Source: Pseudobdellovibrionaceae bacterium
Lineage (GTDB): Bacteria > Bdellovibrionota > Bdellovibrionia > Bdellovibrionales > UBA1609
Assembly: GCA_947444305.1 (NCBI GenBank)
Contig: CANEZP010000005.1
Span: forward strand, 167,771 to 231,770
Length of the DNA stretch: 64,000 bases
Reading direction: 5' to 3'
The notes below the pieces were generated by a model. It searched no databases. It saw nothing but the letters and a program-made list of their open reading frames with translations, and was not told the DNA's origin. Both the position numbers and the translations under genes were made by a program. Each line of letters opens with the position of its first letter. Position 1 is the first letter of the stretch. Shown here in pieces: positions 11,734-22,485 of this stretch.

Positions 11734-12810
11734 TTAGCGGCGATGAAGAATATCTAGGGTAACGAGTTCGTCCAATGTGTAGGGCGACGACGGCTTGTAG
11801 GAGCGTTTACGTTTGCGATACGCATCGTGCAAAAAACCGTCGGCATCGGCTTCGGTAATCGCGGGGTGGATATAGTACTTGCGGCAGATCGCGACGGTAT
11901 TTCGCAAATGGCCCGCAACATTTTTGATCACGCCGCAGAGCCTGACCTTTTCGGCTCGCGCACTGAGCTCTTCTTCCCGGCGGCCAAGCTTCGCAAGCTC
12001 TTGTACCGCTTTGACCGTACCGTGCCAGGTCCGAAAATCTTTAGCCGTCACGGGATGATCGATGATGCCGCGAAGGTAGTCATTTACGTCGCCTGAGCTA
12101 ATGTCATGAGCGCCTCCGTTGTCATCTTCGTACGCAAATAATTCTTCACCGGGCAAATCCTGGCAACGGGCTACGATACGACTTAAGCGCGCATCGGCAA
12201 GTTGCACTTCGTGCGCGACGCCGCTTTTTCCTTTGAAGCGAAATTTCATTTTGTTGCCGCTGACTTTAGCGTGCTGATTCAAAATTGTGGTCAGACCGTA
12301 AGAATCATTTTCGGCCGCGTAGATATCGTTACCGATACGAATGCGGGTTAGCTCCATCAGTTTAACGACGGCCGATAGGACTTTTTGCTTACTGAGGCCG
12401 GGCGACGTCAAATCGGCTTCGACGCGCGCGCGGATCAGCGGAAGACTTTCGCCGAAGTTGAGCAGCTTGCCGAATTTAGTTTCGTTACGGGCAACGTTCC
12501 ATTTTTCATGATAGCGATACTGCTTACGGCCGCGCACGTCGCGGCCCGTGCACTGCAAATGTCCGTTAGCCGTTTTACAGATCCAAACATCTTTCCACGC
12601 CGGCGGGATCACCAAAGATTTTATGCGTTGGACGGTCTTCGCGTCCCGCAGCCGCTTTTTTTGATCGAAAAAGATAAAGCTTTTGCCCGCCCGTTTACGC
12701 GTGTACCCGGGTTGCGAATCGGTCACGTACCGTAATCCCGACTCTTGTGCGAAGACCGAAATCTCTTCGATGGCTTTCGCTATATCAACGACGTCTTTGC
12801 GTTCGTACAT
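11734..12810 (-). CDS. DNA topoisomerase IB (poxvirus type)
   Basis: 358 residues. It relaxes supercoils through a 3'-phosphotyrosyl intermediate. The N-terminal domain shows YVTDSQPGYTRKRAGKSF and IPPAWKDVWIC; the catalytic core shows ELTRIRIGND (first catalytic Arg), KFRFKGKSG, KDFRTWHGTV (Arg/His) and the active-site Tyr in KYYIHPAI. This matches bacterial poxvirus-like type IB enzymes. ATG at 12810 is preceded by AGGAG; the frame extends to 12909 but lacks support. It may be co-transcribed with the downstream FMN reductase. Confidence 0.93.
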   Translation of the reverse strand: MYERKDVVDIAKAIEEISVFAQESGLRYVTDSQPGYTRKRAGKSFIFFDQKKRLRDAKTVQRIKSLVIPPAWKDVWICKTANGHLQCTGRDVRGRKQYRYHEKWNVARNETKFGKLLNFGESLPLIRARVEADLTSPGLSKQKVLSAVVKLMELTRIRIGNDIYAAENDSYGLTTILNQHAKVSGNKMKFRFKGKSGVAHEVQLADARLSRIVARCQDLPGEELFAYEDDNGGAHDISSGDVNDYLRGIIDHPVTAKDFRTWHGTVKAVQELAKLGRREEELSARAEKVRLCGVIKNVAGHLRNTVAICRKYYIHPAITEADADGFLHDAYRKRKRSYKPSSPYTLDELVTLDILHRR

Positions 12811-12908
12811 TCTAAAATCTCCTGGCTTAACAGGGATACAGCAGAAAACGCGCCATGCCCTACGAAAAACAAGAGATATTGGGAACTCAGCCCCGGGGAA
12901 ATTTTCCA

Positions 12909-12933
12909 CGGCTGGCTAAGTTTCCCCCAGCCG
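12909..12933. other. stem-loop between divergent topoisomerase and FHA genes
   Basis: CGGCTGG and CCAGCCG form a 7-bp stem with an 11-base loop in the 243-bp divergent intergenic region. No U-run follows on either strand. It could be an operator or leader structure; its role is unknown. Confidence 0.35.
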
Positions 12934-16110: not shown

Positions 16111-16794
16111 TTATTGTTTCGAAAGTTGATCGAACTTTTCCTGCGCGTACGCTTTTATATATGGATCGGCACTGTCGGCAATAGCCTGCGCTAAGGTATC
16201 GCGCGCGGCGGGCTCCGTCCGGGCCTGGGCGAAGAGGCCATCGATCATCATGATCCGAAGCGATTTCTCGCGCACACCTTTGATCTCTTCCTCGCTATGC
16301 ACTTCGCCGCCTTCTTGGGTGAGCGGGGCGGTGATCGCCGCGCGCAATTCTTCCCTGCTCCGCGATCCGCCTTCTACGAGAATGTACGCCGACAGAATTT
16401 TTTCACGCGCGGCCGATTGGGGATGCATGATGAGTCCACGCAATTGCCGGGCCTGGGCGGGAGTGATTCGGCTCGCGAGAGATTTCAATTGCGATTCGGC
16501 CCGGCCGGCGTCGACGCTAGGATCATCGACCGATCTGGCTTGATCGCGAACCGTTCCAATGAACTCGGAATCGCCGCCGCTCACGGTCTGCCCAGAAGGG
16601 TTACTAATTTGCGCGGCCTGAGGGCCGGGCGCCGTGTTTGCCGGCGACCGGTTTTGTACGGATGTTGTCGCGGACGCGGTGGCTTCGTCTTCCCCCGCGA
16701 TCCCGGGCACGGCCTCGGCACGGTGATATCGAATCACGGCGAACACGGCCACGATCGTGATAACAACTAAGCCGAAAATAAATTTCGCGCGCAT
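16111..16794 (-). CDS. hypothetical membrane-anchored or exported helical protein
   Basis: About 227 residues from ATG 16794. An N-terminal hydrophobic helix (KFIFGLVVITIVAVFAVI) is followed by a low-complexity Ala/Ser/Thr/Gly linker to about residue 85, then a helical domain (LKSLASRITPAQARQLRGL and later repeats) that resembles HEAT-like alpha-helical repeats. No family recognised. A longer frame to 16845 lacks a better start. Probably periplasmic and tethered by its N-terminus. Confidence 0.65.
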   Translation of the reverse strand: MRAKFIFGLVVITIVAVFAVIRYHRAEAVPGIAGEDEATASATTSVQNRSPANTAPGPQAAQISNPSGQTVSGGDSEFIGTVRDQARSVDDPSVDAGRAESQLKSLASRITPAQARQLRGLIMHPQSAAREKILSAYILVEGGSRSREELRAAITAPLTQEGGEVHSEEEIKGVREKSLRIMMIDGLFAQARTEPAARDTLAQAIADSADPYIKAYAQEKFDQLSKQ

Positions 16795-16876
16795 TGGCCC
16801 CCCATTGCTCACAAAATAATGATCTTCACCGGGAGCCGCCGTCAAGTTCGCAGACGCATCAAGGCGGCATTAAGCA

Positions 16877-18493
16877 ATGACAACATCGCCGGAAGTTCTT
16901 ATAGAAAAGCTTAACTCCTGGGGGACCCCAAAAATGAGGCGCGAATTCTTTACGGCGATTATCGCACTTTGGTTATTGTCGGCCGCGGGAATGTACTTTC
17001 TGAGCAGCTCGGTGGGCTGGCTAGTTTTGACCACCTTCCTGCTTTTAATCGCCGTCTATGACGTTTTCCAATCGAAACACACGATCCTAAGAAATTTCCC
17101 GGTGATCGGCCACTTTCGTTACATGCTCGAAATGGTCAGGCCCGAAATGCAGCAGTACTTTATCGAATCCGACGTCACGGATGACCCGATTGCGCGCATT
17201 TACCGCGCCGTCGTTTACCAACGCAGTAAATCAGAAATTGAAACCGTGCCCTTCGGATCTCAACTCGATTTCTACGCGCGTGACTACCAGTGGATCAATC
17301 ATAGCTCCTACCCGCTTGATCTAAAAAGTTCTGATTTCCGCGTGACGATCGGCAATAGCCAATGCACGCAGCCTTACAACGCTTCACTGTTCAACGTGTC
17401 GGCCATGAGTTACGGATCGATCAGCAAGGCCGCGGTGCAAGCACTTAGCCGCGGCTCTTCACTCGCCGGCTGTTACATGAACACGGGCGAAGGCGGCGTA
17501 AGCCCGTATCACCTTGAAGGTGGATCCGATTTAGTTTGGCAAATCGGAACGGCTTACTTCGGCTGCCGCGACGCCAAAGGTTTCTTCTCTGAAAGTGACT
17601 TCGAAAAGATCAGCGGCCACGCGAATATCAAGATGATCGAGCTCAAGATCTCGCAGGGTGCAAAGCCCGGTCACGGCGGCATCTTGCCCGGCGTGAAAGT
17701 GAATCAAGAAATCGCCGAGATCCGCCATGTCCCCGTGGGTGAAACCGTTTTCTCGCCGCCCCACCACACGGCCTTTCATAATTCGCTTGAGCTCATGTAT
17801 TTCGTAAAACGCCTCCGCACTTTAAGCGGCGGTAAGCCGGTCGGCTTTAAACTTTGCTTAGGCCGCCGCGACGAATTTATCAAGATGACGGAAGCGATGC
17901 TCGAGACCGGAATTTATCCGGACTTTATCACCGTCGACGGCGGCGAAGGCGGGACCGGTGCAGCTCCGTTTGAGTTCATTAACTACGTCGGCAGCCCGTT
18001 AAACGAAGGGTTAGTCTTCGTGCACGAAACTTTAGTGAGCGCCGGATTACGCGAACACATTAAAATCATCGCCAGCGGTAAGATCATGACCGGCTTCAAC
18101 ATCTTCGAGAAGATTTCGCTTGGTGCCGATCTTTGCAACAGCGCGCGCGGGATGATGCTGGCGCTCGGCTGTATTCAAAGTTTGCGTTGCAACACCAACA
18201 ATTGCCCGACGGGAATTACGACGAACCGCAAGCGCTTCTACAAAGGCCTCGACGTAAACGACAAAAGCGTGCGCGTGATGCATTATCATAACAAAACCAT
18301 GATAAGCTTCCGTGATCTTTTGGGCGCCGCCGGGCACAGGCAGCCTTCGCAAATCAAAATGGGCGATATCTCTCGTCGCGAACATCACCGCATCGTAGAT
18401 CTCAATAAAATATACGAAGGTAATTCCTCCTTATCGCCGCAAGAAATTCGCGCGGGCGCGGCCGCCGGATCTCCGTCAGGGTCTTCGCACTAG
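16877..18493 (+). CDS. FMN-binding glutamate synthase family protein, membrane-anchored
   Basis: 538 residues. Two membrane helices (about 25-43 and 48-64) precede a glutamate-synthase-type FMN barrel: SAMSYGS at 174-180, NTGEGG at 201-206, AKPGHGGILP at 261-270, TVDGGEGGTGAAP at 351-363, IASGKI near 397. An iron-sulfur-like segment CIQSLRCNTNNCPTG at 431-445 matches the 3Fe-4S region of glutamate synthases. There is no N-terminal glutaminase domain, so the amide donor must be another protein or free ammonia; the true reaction of this family is poorly known. First gene of a four-gene unit: its stop shares one base with the MFS gene start. Confidence 0.9.
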   Translation: MTTSPEVLIEKLNSWGTPKMRREFFTAIIALWLLSAAGMYFLSSSVGWLVLTTFLLLIAVYDVFQSKHTILRNFPVIGHFRYMLEMVRPEMQQYFIESDVTDDPIARIYRAVVYQRSKSEIETVPFGSQLDFYARDYQWINHSSYPLDLKSSDFRVTIGNSQCTQPYNASLFNVSAMSYGSISKAAVQALSRGSSLAGCYMNTGEGGVSPYHLEGGSDLVWQIGTAYFGCRDAKGFFSESDFEKISGHANIKMIELKISQGAKPGHGGILPGVKVNQEIAEIRHVPVGETVFSPPHHTAFHNSLELMYFVKRLRTLSGGKPVGFKLCLGRRDEFIKMTEAMLETGIYPDFITVDGGEGGTGAAPFEFINYVGSPLNEGLVFVHETLVSAGLREHIKIIASGKIMTGFNIFEKISLGADLCNSARGMMLALGCIQSLRCNTNNCPTGITTNRKRFYKGLDVNDKSVRVMHYHNKTMISFRDLLGAAGHRQPSQIKMGDISRREHHRIVDLNKIYEGNSSLSPQEIRAGAAAGSPSGSSH

Positions 18494-19713
18494 TGGTCCT
18501 AGACGTCGGACCGTTAAAAAAATATCCGCAGTTTCGCTGGTTATTCATCGGCCAGCTCGTGTCTATCTTAGGTTCGAATATCGCCTACGTCGCCTCGCCG
18601 TTCTTGATTTACCAAATGACGAATTCGACCGCGCAGGTCGGTTTACTCGGGGCGGTCTCCCTTGTTCCCTTGGTCGTCTTCGGTTTTTGGGGCGGCGCCG
18701 TGGCCGACGTGTGGAACAGGCGTAAGATCATCTTCGTTTGCGAAGGTTCGCTCGCCCTAATCAGTGCGGGCTTCGCGCTGGCGATTCACTACGACAAGGT
18801 GAGCGTGCCGGGTGTGTTCGCGGTGGCGGCGTTGATGTCGGCCCTCGGCGGCTTTCACCGTCCCGCGCTCGAATCGCTGACGCCGCGGTTAGTCCCTCGC
18901 GAAGAACTTCCGAAGATTAGTTCGCTCAACGGCTTTCGCGGCACGTTCGCGCATATTCTCGGGCCGGCAATCGGTGGTTTGCTGTTAGCCAAGGGCGGTG
19001 TTTCCTTTGCGTTCTGGGCCGATGCGCTTTCGTATATCATTTCAATGGCTTTCTTGCTCGGCGTGCGAAATCCGGCGCGCGATGAAGCGCCCAAGGACCG
19101 CCCCGGCCTCAAAGCGATACGAGAGGGTTTCGCGTACGCTTTACAGCGACCCGTTTTGCTCGGCACGTATTTAGTGGACATGATCGCCATGACATTCTGT
19201 TATCCGTCGGCGCTTTTCCCCGCGATCGCGGGTATGTACGGCGTCGCGAGTAAACTCGGGCCGCTCTACTCGGCGATCTCGGCCGGTGCTTTGGTGGCGA
19301 CGGCTTTCAGCGCGTGGACTTATAAGGTTCGTCGGCATGGGGCCATGGTCGCGTTCGGCGCGTTCGGATGGTGTCTCTGCGTAATCGCGTTTGCGGGATT
19401 GCTGACGTACAGTTATTGGGCGGCACTTTTCTTCTTAGCGGCCGCGGGCTACTTCGACATGATCAGCGCCACGTTCCGTTTCACAATTTGGAACGAAACC
19501 GTGCCCGATTCGCATCGCGGACGCCTCGCGGGTATCGAGATGATCAGCTACATGAGCGGGCCATTACTCGGCAACACGCTGCTCGGCTATCTCGCGGCGG
19601 TGACATCGGTTCAATCCGCGTTGGTCGCGGGTGCATCGTCATCGCTAGTGTTGTTGATCGTGGCGCTTTTTTTCCTCACTCCGTTTTGGCGTTACCGGGC
19701 CGCCGCTCGCTAA
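18493..19713 (+). CDS. MFS transporter, EntS-like exporter clade
   Basis: 406 residues with about twelve hydrophobic segments and the MFS loop GGAVADVWNRRK between helices 2 and 3. It belongs to the clade that includes the enterobactin exporter EntS and macrolide exporters, which mostly export small molecules. The GTG start at 18493 shares a base with the stop of the FMN protein gene, so the two are translationally coupled. Context suggests export of the product made by the amidoligase and its partners. Confidence 0.88.
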   Translation: MVLDVGPLKKYPQFRWLFIGQLVSILGSNIAYVASPFLIYQMTNSTAQVGLLGAVSLVPLVVFGFWGGAVADVWNRRKIIFVCEGSLALISAGFALAIHYDKVSVPGVFAVAALMSALGGFHRPALESLTPRLVPREELPKISSLNGFRGTFAHILGPAIGGLLLAKGGVSFAFWADALSYIISMAFLLGVRNPARDEAPKDRPGLKAIREGFAYALQRPVLLGTYLVDMIAMTFCYPSALFPAIAGMYGVASKLGPLYSAISAGALVATAFSAWTYKVRRHGAMVAFGAFGWCLCVIAFAGLLTYSYWAALFFLAAAGYFDMISATFRFTIWNETVPDSHRGRLAGIEMISYMSGPLLGNTLLGYLAAVTSVQSALVAGASSSLVLLIVALFFLTPFWRYRAAAR

Positions 19714-19756
19714 GCACGTCCTTTGCAAAAAGCTTAGGTCAACGGGGAGTAAACCA

Positions 19757-20749
19757 ATGAAATTTCAAATGCCGCCTCAATTATTCAATCACGACGGGGA
19801 AAAACGCCGCGTTGGGTTTGAATTAGAATTCGGTGGCCTGTCCATTCCGGAAACGGTCGAGATCATTAGCAGCCTCTTTGGCGGCACGGTCAAAGACTCA
19901 AGCATGTACGCGGCGACGGTCACCACTTCGCTCGGAGATTTTCAAGTCGAAGCGGATAGCAGCTTCTTGAAGAAGAAGAAATACGAGAAGTATCTTCGCG
20001 CGCTTGGCCTGGACCCCGCCGTGTCGGGGCTCGGTCATAATATCGAAGATATCCTAGGGAAGCTTGCCGGTACGCTGATCCCGTTTGAAATCGTCTCGCC
20101 TCCCCTGCAGATCGACCAGCTCGAGTCCGTCGACAAGATTCGCGCCGAACTTTTTAAACGATCGGCGCGTGGTACGAAGTCGGCGATCTTCATGGCCTTC
20201 GGTATGCAGTTTAACCCCGAAGTGCCTTCGAAAGATGTGCGCACGCTGCTCAACCATTTGCGGGCGTTCTTTGTTTTGTTCGACTGGCTTTACGAAGAGT
20301 CCGAAATTCCCGTCTCGAGGCGAGTGGCTTCGTTCATTCAAGATTTTCCCGAAGACTACGTATCCTTCGTTCTTAATCCGGCGTACTCGCCCACGCTCGA
20401 CCGCTTCATGCGCGATTACATCGAGTTCAACATGACCCGTAACCGGCCACTGGATCTCCTCCCGCTGTTCGATGAGCTTGATCACGAATTGGTCTTCTCG
20501 TACCCGATAGAAAGAGAATTAGTGAAGCCGCGCCCTACCTTTCATTACCGTTTACCGAACAGCATGGTGGATGATCCCGAGTGGCAAATCGCCGAAGACT
20601 GGAATAAGTGGGTCGAAGTCGAGCGCCTCGCCAACGACGAAGAGCGGTTAGCCCGCATGACGAAGGATTATTTTTCCAATCGCGAAGGCAATCTTCTTTT
20701 CGTGCGTTCTAAGTGGGCCGCTAAAACTAGGGACTGGCTCAGTGTCTAA
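19757..20749 (+). CDS. amidoligase family enzyme (glutamine-synthetase-like COOH-NH2 ligase)
   Basis: 330 residues. The N-terminus shows RRVGFELEFGG (20-25 core), VEADSSF at 64-70, and PFEIVSPPL at 109-117; these are the strand motifs of the amidoligase_2 family, predicted ATP-dependent ligases that join a carboxylate to an amine. A C-terminal helical part (FFVLFDWLYEES onward) is usual. GGGAG precedes the ATG. It overlaps the following amidotransferase-type gene by 8 bp. Pairings of such amidoligases with class-I amidotransferases have been described and are taken to make or break gamma-glutamyl-type amides; the substrate here is unknown. Confidence 0.85.
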   Translation: MKFQMPPQLFNHDGEKRRVGFELEFGGLSIPETVEIISSLFGGTVKDSSMYAATVTTSLGDFQVEADSSFLKKKKYEKYLRALGLDPAVSGLGHNIEDILGKLAGTLIPFEIVSPPLQIDQLESVDKIRAELFKRSARGTKSAIFMAFGMQFNPEVPSKDVRTLLNHLRAFFVLFDWLYEESEIPVSRRVASFIQDFPEDYVSFVLNPAYSPTLDRFMRDYIEFNMTRNRPLDLLPLFDELDHELVFSYPIERELVKPRPTFHYRLPNSMVDDPEWQIAEDWNKWVEVERLANDEERLARMTKDYFSNREGNLLFVRSKWAAKTRDWLSV

Positions 20750-21527
20750 ACCGGGGCGTCCCAGGATCGGCGTGACCGGCCCCGACGAGGGCGGCGATCC
20801 CGCATGGTACTGCACCAGGCTGATGATTTGGCTCAGCGGCGGGAAGGCCGTTCGCATTACTCCTTCCCGCGGCTACGCGATAGCCGCGCTCTCGGGCGTG
20901 GTCTTCGGTGGCGGCGCCGATATCAATCCCGTCCGGTACCACGATACACTTTTAGAAACGATCAAGACCGAATCAAAAAAAGTGCCGCGCTTTGATTTCA
21001 AATTTATCGTTTCGATTTTCTTATGGCTTACGCGACGAATATTTTCGGTTAAATCAAGCCGCGCTTCCCTCGACATTAAACGTGACGAACTCGAATTCGC
21101 CCTCCTCAAAGACTGCGTCGCTAAACATTTACCGGTGCTCGGCATCTGCCGGGGCGGTCAGCTCATCAATGTTTTTTTCGGCGGCACGCTTTACCAAACC
21201 ATTTCGAGTTTTTACACCGAGACCCCGCAACTCCGCACGGTCCGCCCCCGCAAAAAAATCACGATCGAACCCGGCACCCTCCTCGCGCGAATCCTTAAAC
21301 GCACGCAAACCAAAGTTAATTCCCTGCACGACCAAGCCGTTAAGGATATCGGCGAAGGCCTAAAAATCTCAGCCCGCGAACCAAACGGTGTCGTCCAAGC
21401 CATCGAACACCAAACCCACCCTTTCCTCATCGGCGTCCAGTGGCACCCCGAATTCATGCCCCAATTCAAAATCCAAAGAAGATTCTTCCGCTCCTTAATA
21501 AAAGCAGCTTCGCTAAAAACCCCTTAA
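20742..21527 (+). CDS. class-I glutamine amidotransferase / gamma-glutamyl hydrolase (peptidase C26)
   Basis: 261 residues, PuuD-like. The nucleophile Cys136 sits in GICRGGQLIN and the His235/Glu237 pair in QWHPEF. The oxyanion-type GGGADINP is at 56-63. An insert at about residues 66-110 includes a hydrophobic stretch (FKFIVSIFLWLTRRIF) that shorter PuuD enzymes do not have. The GTG start at 20742 overlaps the amidoligase stop. The enzyme probably hydrolyses or transfers from a gamma-glutamyl bond. The last 300 bases are strikingly poor in G, like the noncoding leader that follows. Confidence 0.87.
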   Translation: MSKPGRPRIGVTGPDEGGDPAWYCTRLMIWLSGGKAVRITPSRGYAIAALSGVVFGGGADINPVRYHDTLLETIKTESKKVPRFDFKFIVSIFLWLTRRIFSVKSSRASLDIKRDELEFALLKDCVAKHLPVLGICRGGQLINVFFGGTLYQTISSFYTETPQLRTVRPRKKITIEPGTLLARILKRTQTKVNSLHDQAVKDIGEGLKISAREPNGVVQAIEHQTHPFLIGVQWHPEFMPQFKIQRRFFRSLIKAASLKTP

Positions 21528-21720: not shown

Positions 21721-21740
21721 AAAGAAGATCAGCTCCTCGA

Positions 21741-21806
21741 AGCCAAATCCCCGCAGACCAAAAGCCAAATCCCCACAGACCCAAAGCCAATCCCCGCAAA
21801 CCCGAC
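21741..21806 (+). repeat. three imperfect ~22-bp tandem repeats
   Basis: Units begin at 21741, 21763 and 21785, each starting AGCCAA(A)TCCCC followed by GCAGACC, ACAGACCC or GCAAACCC. The motif AATCCCCGC also ends the hairpin core just upstream, so the repeats may have grown from that core. Confidence 0.6.
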
Positions 21807-21954: not shown

Positions 21955-22485
21955 ATGAAGCAGCTGAAGTTTCTCAAACCGGAACCTAAGATGTACGGCG
22001 GTACGCTTAGGAATAAACGCAAGAACCGTAAAGGCCCCCGTCCATTAGCGGTGAAGCACTCCATGCATCTCAGCCTCAAATCCTCGAAGGCTAAAGGCGA
22101 ATGGTCGTTCTACCGTCATCGAAGAACGATCCGGGGAATCGTCGATAAGTTTGCTACGAAGTACGGCGTAAAAATTCATTCGATGGCGAACGTGGGTAAT
22201 CATCTGCACATCCATATTCAACTTGCGAATCGTTTCACTTATCGTTCATTTATCCGCGCGATCACCGCGGCGATTGCCATGGCCGTTACGGGTGCGAGTC
22301 GTTGGAATAAATTAGGTATCAAATTTTGGGATTACCGGCCGTTCACGCGGGTCATCGTTGGATTGCGTGCTTTTTTAGGGATGCGGGATTATGTTCTCAT
22401 CAACGAGATCGAGAGTCAGGGCCATGAACGCTCTTACGCAAGGCTCGTTGTTAATGAATTCAAACAAAGGGCCGGCACAACGTGA
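21955..22485 (+). CDS. RAYT-like Y1/HUH transposase (copy 1)
   Basis: 176 residues. The HUH metal-binding motif lies in VGNHLHIHIQ near residue 83 and the candidate catalytic Tyr in MRDYVLINEIE near residue 144, as in IS200/IS605-type and REP-associated tyrosine transposases. It is very basic at the N-terminus. It is a paralog of the protein at 45106. RAYTs are usually single-copy, domesticated genes that act on short palindromes; the hairpin upstream is the obvious substrate candidate. Its stop overlaps the DUF486 GTG, so it is translated together with host genes. Confidence 0.82.
   Translation: MKQLKFLKPEPKMYGGTLRNKRKNRKGPRPLAVKHSMHLSLKSSKAKGEWSFYRHRRTIRGIVDKFATKYGVKIHSMANVGNHLHIHIQLANRFTYRSFIRAITAAIAMAVTGASRWNKLGIKFWDYRPFTRVIVGLRAFLGMRDYVLINEIESQGHERSYARLVVNEFKQRAGTT

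Follow-up and report, generated by a model that had tools for sequence, protein, structure and literature searches.

We analysed a 64,000-nucleotide stretch of a Pseudobdellovibrionaceae genome (hereafter the window; host genome 4.17 Mb in 29 contigs), in which genes for a stand-alone FMN protein, an MFS_3 protein, an amidoligase and a Peptidase C26 enzyme follow one another. We consider it somewhat more probable than otherwise that the core of this locus is the amidoligase and C26, acting as a pair that would add and remove a glutamyl group, and that the FMN and MFS genes are a lineage insertion outside the conserved function. The initial annotation had treated all four genes as one amide/gamma-glutamyl metabolite unit. 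Its description of the locus stood: checking of the open reading frames confirmed the coordinates, the single plus strand and the spacing, and all four family assignments were supported by Pfam scores well over the cut-offs (Table 1). The FMN and MFS frames overlap by 1 bp, a gap of 43 bp with GGGGAG ahead of the ATG separates MFS from the amidoligase, and the amidoligase and C26 frames overlap by 8 bp. The designation of the MFS protein as EntS-type held in part, in that the protein resembles EntS but falls short of the equivalog cut-off (209.2 against 324 bits, NF007792).

Table 1. Features of the window and of compared loci (positions without a locus handle are those of the window).
Feature	Location	Strand	Size, start codon and Pfam score	Assignment
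Topoisomerase gene	11734-12909			Bacterial DNA topoisomerase IB
Divergent hypothetical gene	16111-16845	-		Edge of the putative insertion; faces the amidoligase gene directly in G003
FMN protein	16877-18493	+	538 aa; Glu_synthase, 289 bits (cut-off 20.4)	Membrane-anchored stand-alone FMN glutamate-synthase-domain protein; extra copy, putatively inserted upstream
MFS_3 protein	18493-19713	+	406 aa, GTG; MFS_3, 112.5 bits (cut-off 27)	Exporter-like, EntS-like; putatively inserted upstream
Amidoligase	19757-20749	+	330 aa; Amidoligase_2 (PF12224), 205.8 bits (cut-off 22)	Predicted GS/GCS-fold ATP-dependent COOH-NH2 ligase; putative core of the system
C26	20742-21527	+	261 aa, GTG; Peptidase_C26 (PF07722), 155.8 bits (cut-off 20.5)	Class-I amidotransferase fold/Peptidase C26, PuuD-like; near-constant amidoligase partner
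C-rich segment	21530-21900			GC skew about -0.35
Direct repeats	21740-21804			Three imperfect 22-nt repeats
Transposase gene	21955-22485			Small, Y1/IS200-like
FMO-like gene	L026:1509-2768			Flavin monooxygenase
VTT/DedA gene	L022:11610-12035			3′ of the pair
VTT/DedA gene	L025:11577-12023			3′ of the pair
VTT/DedA gene	L038:11599-12024			3′ of the pair
VTT/DedA gene	L047:11727-12413			3′ of the pair
Mechanosensitive ion channel gene	L116:3271-5667			Neighbour of the pair
Mechanosensitive ion channel gene	L119:7088-9511			Neighbour of the pair
Mechanosensitive ion channel gene	L127:7058-9400			Neighbour of the pair
Mechanosensitive ion channel gene	L132:7648-8514			Neighbour of the pair

The amidoligase and C26 form a genuine pair and are inherited together. 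Across Bdellovibrionota, Pseudomonadota and Desulfobacterota-type bacteria, about 52 of 55 amidoligase loci have C26 next in order, the total of approximately 55 being the sum of three sets minus known overlaps, with a few duplicates between sets possible. Carriers in the phylum sets, found with a 22-sequence amidoligase profile, comprised 8 of 291 Bdellovibrionota genomes (counting that of the window) and 22 of 398 Pseudomonadota genomes; a separate scan of named genomes yielded 30 loci, including those of Vibrio, Marinobacterium, Sedimenticola, Hahella, Motiliproteus and Desulfotignum. The C26 gene was directly 3′ of the amidoligase in 8/8, 20/22 and 29/30 loci of these sets, respectively. 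The two frames usually overlap across loci, some overlap lengths depending on start-codon choice, and the pairwise distances of amidoligase and C26 at 50 loci were closely correlated (Mantel r = 0.90; 0 of 2000 permutations as high). The link between the two genes that had been proposed at the outset is thus well founded. On plasmids the pairing is looser, with C26 present at 3 of 7 distinct amidoligase loci. A gene for an FMO-like flavin monooxygenase takes C26's position 3′ of the amidoligase at a single Pseudomonadales locus.

An AlphaFold2 model of the amidoligase (pLDDT 90) was searched against PDB folds, and the top eight matches were all glutamine synthetases or YbdK/glutamate-cysteine-ligase types (best E 0.028), one of them bearing the label predicted glutathione synthase. 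Its fold neighbours were YbdK, glutamine synthetases and plant glutamate-cysteine ligase, each match being weak and the kind consistent; a PDB sequence search with the amidoligase gave no meaningful match. The residues invariant in 28 homologues (E22, E24, E65, D67, E111, N153, R228, R259, H263 and R265) would suit a metal- and ATP-dependent ligase, and the modelled GS/GCS-type fold with acidic and basic active-site residues supports predicted membership in Amidoligase_2. To our knowledge, no amidoligase_2 activity has been described, and a literature search found no tested substrate for the amidoligase-C26 pair. A phage origin of the amidoligase was rejected: a search of 50,697 phage records with an E threshold of 0.01 gave no match, and viral matches were by fold only.

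The C26 enzyme retains an intact Cys-His-Glu triad (C136, H235, E237). PuuD (NF008471) was its best NCBIfam match, at a score below the equivalog cut-off (84.5 against 266 bits), so gamma-glutamyl hydrolysis is proposed by analogy. Characterised members of the Peptidase C26 branch hydrolyse gamma-glutamyl amides. In the mechanism that we favour, the amidoligase would use ATP to activate a carboxylate, by its fold most likely the gamma-carboxyl of glutamate, and join it to the amine of a small molecule, and C26 would hydrolyse the resulting gamma-glutamyl amide; the pair would then resemble PuuA/PuuD, the gamma-glutamylputrescine synthetase and gamma-glutamyl-GABA hydrolase by which a gamma-glutamyl group is added and removed. 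Both systems combine a GS-fold ligase with a C26-type hydrolase, whereas the window ligase belongs to another family, its C26 scores below the PuuD cut-off and the PuuB/PuuC oxidation genes were not seen beside the pair. Of this model, the presence of the genes, the intact catalytic residues, the GS/GCS-type fold, the conserved gene overlap and co-inheritance are seen in the data; the glutamyl donor, the order of the steps and all substrates are our inference.

The main rival, possible but in our view rather unlikely, holds that C26 is a glutaminase feeding ammonia to the amidoligase, which would amidate a carboxylate. The class-I amidotransferase fold, the catalytic triad and a match to the GATase profile are consistent with such a role, and overlapping genes with near-constant pairing are what a two-subunit amidotransferase might show. 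Nevertheless, Peptidase C26 is by far the closest profile (155.8 bits, against 60.4 for GATase) and PuuD the best NCBIfam match, and some amidoligases, in the Pseudomonadota set and on plasmids, have no neighbouring C26.

A pairing of this kind has been anticipated. In 2009, Iyer et al. reportedly predicted that bacterial Amidoligase_2 genes (PF12224) neighbour a class-I amidotransferase-like thiol peptidase, and the Pfam entry for Amidoligase_2 presumably records the same bacterial neighbourhood link. Since that prediction covers an amidoligase-amidotransferase-like pairing, the best reading is that the window pair belongs to this already known kind: ligase family, partner type and order are the same, nothing essential differs, and the window adds the FMN and MFS genes upstream, in one species. 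Two papers on phage amidoligases (PMC10580990, PMC11318856) cite Iyer et al. 2009. The amidoligase-glutamine amidotransferase cassettes of phages, those of OM43 phages for example, likewise combine a PF12224 ligase with an amidotransferase, which, unlike the window C26, is reported as PF13522 (class II) (PMC10580990).

Beyond the pair itself, a VTT/DedA-domain gene lies directly 3′ of C26 in 16 of the 30 named loci. At 15 of them it encodes a small VTT membrane protein (PF09335), and at the remaining one, from a Bdellovibrionia genome (L047), the same position is taken by a member of another VTT subfamily, the two subfamilies having no detectable tblastn similarity. Given the relatedness of many of these loci, they may represent one ancestral cassette and one separate case. 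This third gene would speak for a membrane-linked function, in which the substrate of the amidoligase, C26 and VTT/DedA would be an amine that is lipid-associated or cross-membrane, with the MFS protein replacing VTT in the window lineage; mechanosensitive channels adjoining the pair at several other loci (Table 1), possibly reflecting an osmotic link, point in the same direction. We regard this reading as unlikely. The pair occurs without VTT in Marinobacterium, Hahella, most sampled Pseudomonadota and other Bdellovibrionota, and the window's MFS gene lies 5′ of the pair, not 3′. With the queries used, there was no VTT homologue beside the window's pair, nor in the other sampled Pseudomonadota flanks except at the Sedimenticola locus already counted. 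A limited literature search found nothing relevant linking amidoligases to VTT/DedA or PuuD.

Two hydrophobic segments (24-43 and 44-66) lie at the N terminus of the FMN protein, which also has a Glu_synthase FMN domain with the 3Fe-4S cysteines, in a C-x5-C-x4-C motif at 432. We take this protein to be akin to stand-alone YerD-like proteins and to MgsC of N-methylglutamate synthase, with which it shares the FMN domain and cysteine spacing; it differs in its N-terminal membrane anchor and in a host genome without a GATase_2 partner. No GATase_2 class-II glutaminase domain (PF00310) was found in the host genome, against 12 of 14 control genomes. The host also lacks a canonical glutamate synthase large subunit. 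In its place are two stand-alone FMN Glu_synthase proteins, the window protein and a copy encoded on contig C15 that is 54% identical to it; no other strong Glu_synthase match was found in the genome. In the tree, the C15 copy clusters with genus mates (100/100), and the window copy is placed next to that of G036, which belongs to a different family within the order (88/88, not decisive). As judged from sequence, the vertically inherited FMN gene is the C15 copy and the window's is an extra copy. A recent duplication was ruled out by this degree of identity and by the separate grouping of the copies. GC3 of the FMN gene (0.646) is like that of its neighbours, and that of MFS (0.708) is slightly high.

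The view that all four genes form one amide/gamma-glutamyl metabolite pathway, with the FMN protein in a redox step and the MFS protein in export, is decidedly unlikely in our assessment, although the genes lie on a single strand with a maximum gap of 43 bp and scans for promoter- or terminator-like sites between them gave no excess over shuffles. A neighbourhood survey found the four together in the window only and at none of the other sampled loci. Absence of joint occurrence elsewhere is an outcome that the initial annotation had itself named as refuting its model. FMN/MFS homologues adjoin the pair at none of the other approximately 54 loci: by tblastn, no FMN homologue is near these amidoligases and no MFS homologue but one, an MFS_3 protein (29% identical) encoded 5′ of amidoligase-C26 on a plasmid of Qingshengfaniella. 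Of 241 Bdellovibrionota genomes, 104 had an FMN homologue and 35 an MFS homologue (E 1e-60). Where a genome was listed with both, their sites were far apart or on separate contigs, and the two were not found adjoining each other outside the window. Among MFS-positive genomes, none besides the window's carried an amidoligase. With these neighbours absent at other loci and from same-genus synteny, the proposal that FMN and MFS are pathway members was not sustained. Because they adjoin the pair in this species only, the proposed four-gene pathway is probably no more than a chance local arrangement of genes, and the two genes are probably not part of the conserved amidoligase-C26 system.

Comparison with relatives suggests how this arrangement arose. 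In G003, a member of the same genus and the nearest relative with the pair, the homologues run FHA-14684-16111-[AML-C26]-DMT6-CoA-binding, which is the window's order with the last two inverted and no FMN or MFS gene between; in L020/L015, 158 bp separate the 16111 homologue from the amidoligase. The 16111-14684 anchor is retained in G001 and G002, where all four genes are missing next to it over the contig stretch read. The simplest account is that FMN and MFS were inserted in the window lineage, separating the pair from the divergent gene that it once adjoined; under the alternative, relatives would have had to lose them several times independently. The pair and the inserted genes may by now be co-transcribed: an FMN/MFS overlap of 1 bp and the 43-bp gap to the amidoligase are compatible with one operon, and real recruitment could have occurred. 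On the 3′ side of the pair, the window contains a small Y1/IS200-like transposase gene, missing at the same place in G003 and with a 51% identical homologue in L010, as well as a strongly C-rich segment with three imperfect direct repeats in it (Table 1); no inverted repeats were found around 21.4-22.7 kb. A bacterial DNA topoisomerase IB gene is also present in the window. It is highly improbable that the lineage has acquired a new pathway, in which the amidoligase would make an alkylamine gamma-glutamyl amide, C26 would free the amine, the FMN protein would condense it with 2-oxoglutarate (as in N-methylglutamate synthase, with a class-I-type enzyme standing in for the class-II glutaminase that the genome lacks) and the MFS protein would export the N-substituted glutamate.

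Collectively, the survey marks two of the genes as worth testing and the other two as likely bystanders, and the VTT/DedA gene is a better third candidate than the MFS exporter. The amidoligase-C26 pair is patchy yet widespread and tightly coupled, and settling one substrate would annotate many.
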